Positions 53,002-59,347 of a stretch of DNA of 64,000 nt are shown here, one piece after another (within the stretch, counting starts at the first letter, position 1; each line of letters begins with the position of its first letter). The notes below the pieces were generated by a model, which worked only from the letters and a program-made list of their open reading frames with translations, searched no databases and was not told where the DNA came from. Made by a program: the position numbers and the translations under genes. Source of the stretch: Chlorobiota bacterium (GTDB taxonomy: Bacteria > Bacteroidota > Ignavibacteria > OLB7). The stretch lies in assembly GCA_016788565.1 (NCBI GenBank), contig JAEUSP010000045.1, positions 1 to 64,000 of the forward strand. The letters run 5' to 3'.

Positions 53002-55629
53002 CTACCCACCACTGTACAGCCCGCGAATTCCTTCTTGCAAATAACTTAGCGTTGCCCCGGCTTCCCCACTGCTTACCACCAGCACCAACAGCAGCAACGC
53101 TATCCCGCCGATTGCATAGCCATACACCTTCAGCGGGCGAACGTCATAAACCACCGCCGCGCCACGCAACACACGGTACAGCATCCAAACCAGCACACCG
53201 ATCATCACCGAGAAGGCGATGATTCCCGCGCCCGGGGCTTCCAGCAGGCGGTACAGCACCATTGCCACCGGAATCAGCAGCAGCACCGGAAGCGCGCCCC
53301 AAATGGCGATGATATAGGCATCCCCAAAGAAAATCCGGTTGCGGACAAATGCCGCGCACAACCGAATCAGCACCGCAACCACCAGAAGCAACACAAAGAA
53401 GAACATGGTGAAGGAGATCATGGAAAGCACCGGCCGCCAGATAATCCAGTTCAAAAATTCCTTCAGCGAATCGCTGGTGATGATGGCCGTCAGCACAACA
53501 TCGAAGCCTTCTTCCATCCGGTAGTAGTAGCAAAGCGAGCTTGCAATCACCGCAAACGTGACGGCAATCACCAAGCCCAGCACTGTGGTTTGGAAACTGC
53601 TCAAAATCCGCTGGTCGCGGATGTCGGCAAAAAAGTTGTACGGGCGAAGCAACGCTCGGAAAACGTTCTCGCGGAACCGCCGCGAGCTGTTAATCAGCAG
53701 TAAAAAGAGGATGGCGCAAACAAACCCCGCCGCAATAAACGGGATTGTTGACGGGGCCACATACTCACCAATCGGAACGTCGGGCGTTTTTTGGTCGGTA
53801 TATAACGCCGTCAGCATCAGCGCGCCTTGCCGAAGGTCGCGGCCAAGCCCGTACAGGCCGCAGGTTGCCAAGTACTGCTCGCTGTTGTTTGCCGTCAGCA
53901 ATGGGCGGTCGGTGCGGTAATCGTTGTAAGCCCAGTAGATACCGCCGGCCAATCCCGATTGCCCAATCAGCCCGTAGATGTCGCTGATATATTTCGCCTG
54001 TGCTTCAATGGAAATCGGGTCGCTGTAGCCGCCGTGGTTCTCAAGCTGAACAAATTTCCCGTAGGCCAGCAACAGCAGTGGGCGTTCCTTGTTTAGCTCT
54101 GCCAGCACCACTTTCACTTTCTGGGTTAGTTGTGGGATATCAACATCGAAGGCGTTGATTCCGGGGATGTCACACAGCTTCCGAAGCTCGGGCGTGGCCC
54201 ATCCCGATGCCGAGAAACTGAGCAAACGGTGATCCAGCGAATCAACCACTTTGCGGATGTCGCGCAGCAATGCCAACGCCCCTTCATCTCCATCGGGAAT
54301 GGTTGCGTTCAGCCCCCAAGCCGCCACGCAGGTGTATTTCCCCCCCTGCTCGATGGCAAACCGCATCCGATCCACCACGCGCTTGTGATAGCTTTCGCTG
54401 CTGAACAGTGATGAGGGCGGGGTTCCGCTTGGAGCATCAATCATCGCCATGATTCCGAACTCATCGCACAACTGCAACAGGTACGGGTGCGGAACTCCAT
54501 CGGGGAAACGAATCAAGTTCACCCCCATATCCTTGATAGACTGCATGTCGCGCCGCATCTGCTCGTAACTGAGCGAGGCTCCGTTCTCCTTCACATCCTC
54601 CAAGTAGGCAATCCCCTTCATCGGGATTGGCTGCCCGTTCAGAAATATTTGATTCCCACGGCTTTCAAGCATGCGGAATCCAACGTCTAAAACCTGCTCA
54701 TCCACCAATGCCCCTTTGTAGCGAATCTGGACCACAGCATCGTACAGATTTGGAGAGCCAGGCGCCCACAACGCAGGATTGGTGACGGTAATGGGAATGT
54801 CCACCATCGCCGTCCGTTTGGTTTCCAACGTGAAGGCTTGCGCGCCGCGCCCCACCTCGGTTGGGGGAATGGTATCGTTTCCGGAAGGGCTACGAAGTAT
54901 CACCCCCAGTTCGAACTCAGCTTTGTCATCGGGAAGGGTCACGGTGGTGGGGAGGCTGTCGCTGGTGCTGGTGATGTTCATCCCCCGAATCGCCCCGCTC
55001 ACCACCCGAACCCGGAATTTTGCGGCTCCGTTTCCACCGCTAAGTGTGGTTTGGAACCGTGCATCATCCACCCAAACGCGGGGAACGCCCACCAACACGA
55101 TGTCGCGAAAAATCCCGCCGTAGGTGCGGCTTCCCAAAAACAACTTTCGCCCGGGGACGGTGCTGGTGTAGCCCAGGTGGTTGGCAACATCAATCTGGAT
55201 GGTGTTGTTCCCGCTTAACTTCACCTCATCGGGAACCATGATCGAGAAGGGCATCCCGGTTTCGTGCTGCGCCACAAACTGGCCGTTGATGGTGATGGTG
55301 GCCTGGTACTGAATCCCCAAACAGACCAATTTCCAGCGGTAGTTTTTCAGCATCTCGGCTGGTATCTGGAAGGAGCGTTTGAAGGAGATTTCCCCGGGGT
55401 CAAGGTAGCTGCTGGGGATGGTGACGTTCCCCCACTCATCCCCCCCGTCCTCGCTGAACTGCCACGCGCCGTTCAGCGGAATCAGGGTGCGGGTTGGCGA
55501 GCCAAGCAACCCCTGAAGCAAGCTGTTATCGGGGTTTGTTGGTGCAGCAAGGAACCCCTCGGGGGTTTGCGCCGAAGCGATAACAGCCGCAGTGCACAGG
55601 CTAAGAACTGCAAGAAGAAACGTTCTCAC
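53002..55629 (-). CDS. GH2-fold pseudo-glycosidase fused to a six-helix membrane domain
   Basis: An 875-residue protein with signal peptide 1-20. Residues 45-190 are a GH2 sugar-binding jelly roll (LNGAWQFSEDGGDEWGNVTI, YGGIFRDIVLVG), 190-320 an Ig-like sandwich and 325-600 a TIM barrel (FLNGQPIPMKGIAYLEDVKE, MGVNLIRFPDGVPHPYLLQL). The acid/base site, normally W-S-x-G-N-E, reads WGLNATIP at 438-445, and the nucleophile site, normally S-E-Y/F-G, reads LLAYGK at 520-525, so both Glu are missing. Residues 626-855 hold six membrane helices preceded by a Yip1-like LRPYNFFADIRD. It may bind a glycan rather than cleave it. Confidence 0.85.
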   Translation of the reverse strand: MRTFLLAVLSLCTAAVIASAQTPEGFLAAPTNPDNSLLQGLLGSPTRTLIPLNGAWQFSEDGGDEWGNVTIPSSYLDPGEISFKRSFQIPAEMLKNYRWKLVCLGIQYQATITINGQFVAQHETGMPFSIMVPDEVKLSGNNTIQIDVANHLGYTSTVPGRKLFLGSRTYGGIFRDIVLVGVPRVWVDDARFQTTLSGGNGAAKFRVRVVSGAIRGMNITSTSDSLPTTVTLPDDKAEFELGVILRSPSGNDTIPPTEVGRGAQAFTLETKRTAMVDIPITVTNPALWAPGSPNLYDAVVQIRYKGALVDEQVLDVGFRMLESRGNQIFLNGQPIPMKGIAYLEDVKENGASLSYEQMRRDMQSIKDMGVNLIRFPDGVPHPYLLQLCDEFGIMAMIDAPSGTPPSSLFSSESYHKRVVDRMRFAIEQGGKYTCVAAWGLNATIPDGDEGALALLRDIRKVVDSLDHRLLSFSASGWATPELRKLCDIPGINAFDVDIPQLTQKVKVVLAELNKERPLLLLAYGKFVQLENHGGYSDPISIEAQAKYISDIYGLIGQSGLAGGIYWAYNDYRTDRPLLTANNSEQYLATCGLYGLGRDLRQGALMLTALYTDQKTPDVPIGEYVAPSTIPFIAAGFVCAILFLLLINSSRRFRENVFRALLRPYNFFADIRDQRILSSFQTTVLGLVIAVTFAVIASSLCYYYRMEEGFDVVLTAIITSDSLKEFLNWIIWRPVLSMISFTMFFFVLLLVVAVLIRLCAAFVRNRIFFGDAYIIAIWGALPVLLLIPVAMVLYRLLEAPGAGIIAFSVMIGVLVWMLYRVLRGAAVVYDVRPLKVYGYAIGGIALLLLVLVVSSGEAGATLSYLQEGIRGLYSGG

Positions 55630-57694: not shown

Positions 57695-59347
57695 ATGAAC
57701 ACTCATTGCCTTGCCACATCGATTTTTGCGTTTTTTTTTCTCTCTGTTGTATTCCTTCCCCAAGTCTCCATTGCTCAGCGTTGGGAATTTGCAAGGGTGC
57801 TGCAAGCACAACAGACGTGCAATCTTGCCAAGATTGAGATCGGGAAAAACAATCAGCTGCTGATTGTGGGAGACGCAACCGGGGAGATTCCTTTTGCTGG
57901 TGGTACGTTAGGGAACGACGGCATTGACTCGGCGTATGGCCTGTTGCTGTGCACAGATACAGTAGGGGTTGATCGCTGGGGGCGTTGGTTCCGCCATGTA
58001 TTTCCGCATGATGTGGCAGTAGATGCCAAAGGGAATATCATCGTACTTGCAATTCTTCAGGGGACCGCTACGATTGATGGGCAGCAATTCACCAGCACAG
58101 GAAAACGGTATGATTTACTGTTGATGAAATTTGACACTGCCGGAAAACTATTATGGGGAAAAGTTGGTGGTAGCAACCAAGCCGACGACATACCTCATGT
58201 TGTCGTGAATCCTGATGGCCTGATTGCTGTGGTTGCCGAGTGTTATGGCCCAGCAACCTTCGGCTCGCTTGTGTCGAAGTTCCGTGGGGGGCGTGACTGT
58301 GTAGTCTTCGGTTTTTCCCAGGATGGCACCGAGCGTTGGGTAGTTACCATTGGCAGTACCGAGAAGGATAACGTGTTGGGCATCACTATGAACCAAGCTG
58401 GTGAAAGCTATATTCTTGGAAAGATTGCTGATTCCACATGGGTTGAAGATTCCCTTACCATTTCTGAATCCAATCACAATAATTACCGCGAACCATTTAT
58501 TTGCCGAATTACTCCACAAGGAGAAGTTGACTGGTTTAAGCGTTTTAACATTGGCTACGTAGACAATATGAACCTGATTGAAGAAAATGGAGTACTTCAT
58601 GCAGTATTTCAATTTACTAGCACCATTACTCTGGATACGTTCAGCTTTACTTCGATTGGTACTTCAGGGCTTGTTGTGGTTGAGATGGAGCGAAGCGGCG
58701 CAATTAGAAAAATTGCGTTATCAATCACTTCGCCACAAAGCTGTATCGCTACTAATTTATTTCGCAGGCAAGGCGAGTCATTCATCGTGGCTTCATTTGG
58801 CGATAGGGTATTTACCGGGAGTGACTCCGTTGTTTTAGGAAATATTTTGTGGATTAACACCATAATTATCGGTGGCGAATCGCTGGCCGCTCCACGATTT
58901 ACCACGACCGGTGGGGGCAATGGTTTTGATTACCCCCAAGATGCTGCAATGCTTCCAAGCGGCAAAATCATTTGCCTGGGGTTATTGCAAGGAACCAAAG
59001 CAACGTTCGGCGAATTCAATTTTAATTTTCCGAAGCCAACCCAGCGTGGATTGTTGGCCATTTTTAATCCCGAAACCACGCCAACTGCTGTTCCACCTGC
59101 AACAACAGAACGCCGCGAACCAACCATACTTCAGCACTCTAGTAGCCTACTCTTGAGCGTGTCAGAGCAATTCACCACATGTTCGTTAGGGCTGTTTGCT
59201 TTAGATGGGATTCAATTGGCTTCACAAAAAGCAAGCGCAGCCTCATCTGCTCAATTACCCTTGGAAGGTCTTCCTTCTGGGGGTTATTTGCTTGAAATAA
59301 TGATTGATGGATATAGATTTTCAAAAAGGATTGTAGTGGTACGGTGA
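57695..59347 (+). CDS. Secreted beta-propeller-like protein with T9SS C-terminal tail
   Basis: A 550-residue protein with signal peptide 1-28 (FFFLSVVFLPQVSIAQ). Residues 30-460 hold recurring blade-like units (AYGLLLCTDTVGVDRWGRWF, DLLLMKFDTAGKLLWGKVGG, DCVVFGFSQDGTERWVVTIG, PFICRITPQGEVDWFKRFNI), as in SBBP-type propellers. The last 80 residues (SLGLFALDGIQLA ... LPSGGYLLEIMIDGYRFSKR) match a Por/type A secretion sorting domain, so it should leave through T9SS. Its DNA is clearly lower in GC than both neighbours. Binding partner unknown. Confidence 0.8.
   Translation: MNTHCLATSIFAFFFLSVVFLPQVSIAQRWEFARVLQAQQTCNLAKIEIGKNNQLLIVGDATGEIPFAGGTLGNDGIDSAYGLLLCTDTVGVDRWGRWFRHVFPHDVAVDAKGNIIVLAILQGTATIDGQQFTSTGKRYDLLLMKFDTAGKLLWGKVGGSNQADDIPHVVVNPDGLIAVVAECYGPATFGSLVSKFRGGRDCVVFGFSQDGTERWVVTIGSTEKDNVLGITMNQAGESYILGKIADSTWVEDSLTISESNHNNYREPFICRITPQGEVDWFKRFNIGYVDNMNLIEENGVLHAVFQFTSTITLDTFSFTSIGTSGLVVVEMERSGAIRKIALSITSPQSCIATNLFRRQGESFIVASFGDRVFTGSDSVVLGNILWINTIIIGGESLAAPRFTTTGGGNGFDYPQDAAMLPSGKIICLGLLQGTKATFGEFNFNFPKPTQRGLLAIFNPETTPTAVPPATTERREPTILQHSSSLLLSVSEQFTTCSLGLFALDGIQLASQKASAASSAQLPLEGLPSGGYLLEIMIDGYRFSKRIVVVR

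Follow-up and report, generated by a model that had tools for sequence, protein, structure and literature searches.

A degenerate GH2 fold joined to a Yip1-like membrane domain in a protein family of Ignavibacteria, Kapabacteria, Kryptonia, and green sulfur bacteria

Ignavibacteria, Kapabacteria, Kryptonia, and green sulfur bacteria share an undescribed, usually single-copy inner-membrane protein family that joins a GH2 fold to a Yip1-like membrane module. The member analyzed here is an 875-amino-acid protein encoded in a 64,000-nt stretch of DNA (the window). A near-universal membrane protein of a whole bacterial branch, standing before the well-studied smc, has apparently gone undescribed: a search of open-licence papers found neither the architecture nor the smc linkage described, and no comparable GH2 pseudoenzyme, which bears out the preliminary description, whose author knew of no family with this layout. 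We read the protein, with moderate confidence, as a housekeeping inner-membrane envelope protein in which a pseudoenzyme GH2 ectodomain sits on a Yip1-type membrane module. Its function is directly testable because green sulfur bacteria have the gene-smc pair and Chlorobaculum tepidum is genetically tractable; this species takes up DNA naturally, and PMC3842273 describes conjugation.

Protein layout and topology

The open reading frame at 53002-55629 (minus strand) was intact, without an internal stop, and its features were as follows.

53002..55629, minus strand: whole gene, signal peptide plus putative pseudo-GH2 plus Yip1-like six-helix membrane domain (GTG start, 875 aa)
55570..55629, minus strand: signal peptide, residues 1-20 (N-terminus hydrophobic over residues 1-23; helix 2-17 in the model)
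55075..55497, minus strand: GH2 sugar-binding-like beta domain, residues 45-185 (weak Glyco_hydro_2_N/N2 matches; beta structure in the model)
54676..55074, minus strand: GH2 immunoglobulin-like sandwich, residues 186-318 (PF00703; model)
53800..54675, minus strand: GH2 TIM barrel with degenerate pocket, residues 319-610 (PF02836; Foldseek, led by 5uj6, 8dhe, and 6ncw at E 1e-36 to 1e-38)
54301..54303, minus strand: Thr443, at the acid/base Glu position (WGLNATIP; alignment with GH2 enzymes)
54064..54066, minus strand: Ala522, at the nucleophile Glu position (LLAYGK; alignment with GH2 enzymes)
53686..53745, minus strand: TM1, residues 629-648, predicted to run from periplasm to cytosol (hydropathy, model, charge pattern)
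53611..53682, minus strand: predicted cytosolic juxtamembrane motif RRFRENVFRALLRPYNFFADIRDQ, residues 650-673, highest conservation in the family (majority frequency)
53056..53598, minus strand: TM2-TM6 of the Yip1-like membrane domain, residues 678-858 (PF04893; stand-alone model)

The N-terminal part had been described as following the GH2 domain order, and Pfam, the structure model, and Foldseek agree that the three-domain GH2 fold is present. Pfam matches of the whole protein were above cut-off for Glyco_hydro_2 (residues 262-319, E 2.8e-10) and Glyco_hydro_2_C (324-547, E 1.6e-10) and below it for the GH2 N-terminal models; NCBIfam and PDB searches also returned GH2, best with beta-glucuronidases and galactosidases. 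An AlphaFold2 model built from an alignment of 44 relatives (pLDDT 90.6, pTM 0.86) gave its best Foldseek matches with 5uj6, 8dhe, and 6ncw (also 6mvf), at E 1e-35 to 1e-38 and about 18-21% identity. The window protein shares the three-domain fold of these beta-glucuronidases and galactosidases but lacks their Glu pair, HYP histidine, and RHEDHP motif and has six fused membrane helices.

The six C-terminal helices proposed earlier were recovered by hydropathy and by the model (629-648, 678-702, 733-761, 768/780-797, 801-828, and 832-858), with a five-helix Yip1-type domain (TM2-TM6) following TM1. The charge pattern of the loops points to a periplasmic GH2 part and a cytosolic TM1-TM2 loop RRFRENVFRALLRPYNFFADIRDQR, consistent with a periplasm-facing protein tethered to the inner membrane, as had been suggested; we infer this topology.

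The Yip1-like entry stands in part. A match was present at residues 659-851 (E 8.8e-5) and spanned the whole Yip1 profile (PF04893), a shared multi-helix membrane domain, but it was borderline, the whole protein reaching 22.9 bits against the 28.6 cut-off; both scores obtained for the window protein (22.9 or 26.8 bits) fall below that curated value. The membrane half searched alone gave E 5.5e-6, 30 of 41 family members matched Yip1 at E<=0.01, and stand-alone proteins of one family (f10) scored 31-33 bits, above the Pfam cut-off. Modeled alone, the membrane half reached pLDDT 89.4 and pTM 0.84; profile search found no PDB relatives of it, and its Foldseek matches all had E > 0.7.

Catalytic pocket

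In an alignment with PDB GH2 enzymes and 13 GH2 proteins of related genomes, T443 takes the place of the acid/base Glu and A522 that of the nucleophile Glu, the pair that an active GH2 enzyme carries. The reported absence of both catalytic residues is thereby confirmed, and the loss extends further into the pocket: RHEDHP is replaced by YLEDVK, the HYP histidine is gone (the region reads PDGVPHPY), and the Asn preceding the acid/base Glu is also missing. The same alignment to PDB and local GH2 enzymes ruled out other Glu residues at the catalytic positions. On these grounds the GH2 fold of the window protein is predicted to be without hydrolase activity.

Among 133 aligned full-length relatives, 95 had neither Glu, 20 the acid/base residue only, 13 the nucleophile only, and 5 both; the homolog alignment called for in the preliminary description thus places the loss in most relatives. 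Both 443 and 522 vary freely, the latter among S, R, G, K, A, C, N, and other residues. The five with both residues (L007, L008, L096, L099, and L101) are Kryptonia-like, retain the rest of the pocket (RHEDHP, GHYP, EEIPVW, and SEYG or TEYG), and are nested within the family (support 80) in a tree of the GH2 part that was rooted on GH2 enzymes and built with the catalytic columns excluded. The earlier view of a nonenzyme suits the window protein, whose pocket is lost, but not this branch, which keeps the Glu pair and the whole pocket, may be active, and is probably a tethered enzyme. From the full pocket of these five, the simplest reading is that the ancestor was probably a membrane-tethered GH2 enzyme and that the pocket decayed in more than one branch; the number of Glu losses is uncertain because tree support is modest. 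The family offers a natural enzyme-to-pseudoenzyme series, from full pocket through one Glu and none to loss of the GH2 part with the anchor kept.

Distribution and conservation

A relative was present in 59 of 61 related genomes, nearly always in single copy. A survey of 395 phylum members found one full-length gene in nearly every genome sampled from the class, and most other sampled members of the phylum were without it. A GTDB genome scan gave 352 loci, of which 80 were kept, mostly from Ignavibacteria, Kapaibacterium, Kryptonia, Chlorobiota, or Bacteroidetes MAGs. Some of the out-of-class relatives were identified as green sulfur bacteria by the FMO bacteriochlorophyll protein that their genomes encode, among them all nine examined in f29, f44, and f56. 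The gene is not essential everywhere, since two f10 genomes (G022 and G058) lack it and retain smc; G196 lacks both genes, and an assembly gap could explain both absences. Loss within f10 (L068, L069, and L070) was stepwise, first of the GH2 half and then, in G022 and G058, of the whole gene. In a closed 2.2-Mb Kapabacteria-type genome (L067:6330-9118), the homolog is present as three overlapping frames (569, 418, and 177 aa), possibly through frameshift decay.

Comparison with the same-genus ortholog gave a dN/dS of 0.076 for the whole window gene, 0.077 for its degenerate TIM barrel, and 0.067 for its membrane part. These low values, with relatives almost everywhere and mostly as single full-length genes, rule out a lone decayed copy. 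In the family alignment, residues 650-673 (consensus FRExxxRxLLRPYNFFADIRD) stood out with a mean majority frequency of 0.73; the other domains ranged from 0.36 to 0.48. F652, R658, N665, D669, R671, D672, W777, and R819 are near-invariant, as are many positions within the GH2 part. The strongest constraint is on the cytosolic juxtamembrane motif and the membrane module.

Gene neighborhood

With smc called by a full TIGR02168 match, the family showed conserved genomic linkage to this gene: in 46 of 57 genomes, from 18 of 22 families, the next same-strand gene downstream was smc, with gaps mostly of -20 to +30 bases, and the pair was found in all 12 out-of-class relatives examined, green sulfur bacteria included. 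The window's own genome is an exception, as are three more of the five f1 genomes. In the window the gene is isolated, with a divergent NDH-2-like gene on one side and convergent small genes on the other; it has separated from the smc of this genome, which is on another contig. The Kapabacteria-like families f6, f14, f15, and f22 also lack the adjacency; their copies have SprA, HrcA/GrpE, or other genes alongside. At the Kapabacteria-like loci L035, L037, L043, L048, and L067 it is divergent from SprA (gliding/type 9 secretion), and at some of them hrcA and grpE follow it. In f10 the GH2 half is lost, and the stand-alone Yip1 protein is still encoded immediately upstream of smc. Seven out-of-class controls had different or no membrane neighbors (one an ABC permease-like gene), which argues against a generic membrane gene before smc throughout the phylum. 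The linkage is strong evidence of very long-lasting co-expression, at most; it does not prove interaction or shared function.

Many class members carry the string smc-HAD-PEMT-lpxB-(DUF374)-lpxK, often with gatB-tpiA before it; no lipid A gene is adjacent in green sulfur bacteria, f2, or f10. At L044:14471-15046, the PEMT-family gene that lies between smc and lpxB bears a weak likeness to the lipid A 1-phosphate methyltransferase LmtA of Leptospira, its 52 bits falling short of the cut-off. No polysaccharide-utilization context was found in the 64,000-nt window or as a recurring neighborhood of relatives. The suggested glycan sensor gains no direct support from these surroundings, which consist of smc, lpxB/lpxK, and other housekeeping genes in place of a polysaccharide locus.

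Proposed role and alternatives

That the gene so often adjoins smc may point to a core role in the cell envelope that had not been suspected. In the housekeeping reading, the signal peptide would export the protein and the six helices would anchor it in the inner membrane. The periplasmic GH2 fold, no longer hydrolyzing, would serve as a binding or scaffold ectodomain, like the inactive folds of Klotho and 4F2hc; its pocket could hold a ligand unrelated to glycans, or none. The functional core would be the Yip1-like module with the conserved basic TM1-TM2 motif, which may dock a cytosolic or membrane partner. A role in envelope growth or biogenesis in the cell cycle would be likely because the gene appears to have been co-expressed ancestrally with smc and, in many lineages, with genes of lipid A synthesis. 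The ligand, the partner, and the process are our guesses.

Klotho (GH1-like) and 4F2hc/rBAT (GH13-like) are membrane-anchored GH folds that do not hydrolyze and act as binding or accessory ectodomains. An inactive GH fold, an anchor, and purifying selection also come together in the window protein, as judged from sequence only. Unlike it, Klotho and 4F2hc/rBAT belong to other GH clans, are animal proteins, and are single-pass; the comparison is an analogy of mechanism, with no homology claimed.

The membrane module could instead be an assembly or accessory factor of an envelope transporter or of the lipid A/LPS pathway, a role that we consider unlikely. The analogy is with YknW, a Yip1-family protein of Bacillus that modulates how the ABC transporter YknXYZ is assembled (PMC4887032) and the sole functionally described bacterial member of that family found in the literature. 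Many families favor such a role through the lpxB, lpxK, DUF374 acyltransferase-like, and PEMT/LmtA-like genes of the string, but these lipid A genes stand apart in green sulfur bacteria, f2, and f10, the family resembles Yip1 weakly in sequence, and the clan of Yip1 is broad. In contrast to Yip1 and YknW, the window family has an extra TM1, a cytosolic motif of its own, and a huge periplasmic ectodomain, and its neighbor is smc in place of a transporter.

The protein could also be a physical partner or membrane anchor of SMC. Its cytosolic TM1-TM2 motif would then draw the SMC complex to the inner membrane, and its pseudo-GH2 part would report the state of the envelope or peptidoglycan, coupling chromosome organization to wall growth. 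Several class-level groups share the adjacency, among them green sulfur bacteria, which have no lpxB/lpxK linkage; it persists where the membrane half alone remains, and the cytosolic motif has the highest conservation. We nevertheless judge this quite improbable, because several lineages retain both the gene and smc at separate places, smc occurs without the gene in two f10 genomes, and unrelated housekeeping genes such as tpiA and gatB also adjoin smc. The statement that a periplasmic pseudo-glycosidase on a Yip1-type module anchors or regulates the SMC complex from the inner membrane in the Chlorobi/Ignavibacteria lineage, coupling envelope state to chromosome organization, is one in which we likewise place little confidence.

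It is very unlikely that only the membrane protein matters and that the GH2 part it carries is a vestige undergoing slow erosion, with the smc adjacency historical. The pocket residues are variable, f10 lost the GH2 half and then, in some genera, the whole gene, and the gene is broken up into overlapping frames in one closed genome of Kapabacteria type; against this, the TIM barrel is under strong purifying selection when close relatives are compared, the domains are intact over class-scale distances, and many positions of the GH2 part are near-invariant. That the window protein is still an enzyme, through other residues or on an unusual substrate, is most improbable, since positions 522 and 443 vary freely, the HYP histidine and NE asparagine are gone, and no invariant alternative acid pair was seen at the pocket. 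In favor of activity are the RHEDHP, HYP, NE, and nucleophile Glu retained by Kryptonia-like members and the single Glu that 33 members still have.

Additional observations

The SMC protein of the window's own genome (L185:6250-10443, contig C137) carries an insertion of about 215 aa at the Walker A loop (GPNGCGK|C...VVHN|SN), which matches Intein_splicing (PF14890, E 3.7e-22) and is absent from the same-family SMC in L034. Within the window, positions 57695-59347 (plus strand) encode a secreted-looking protein of 550 aa with a very weak match to a type 9 secretion C-terminal sorting domain (E 0.062).
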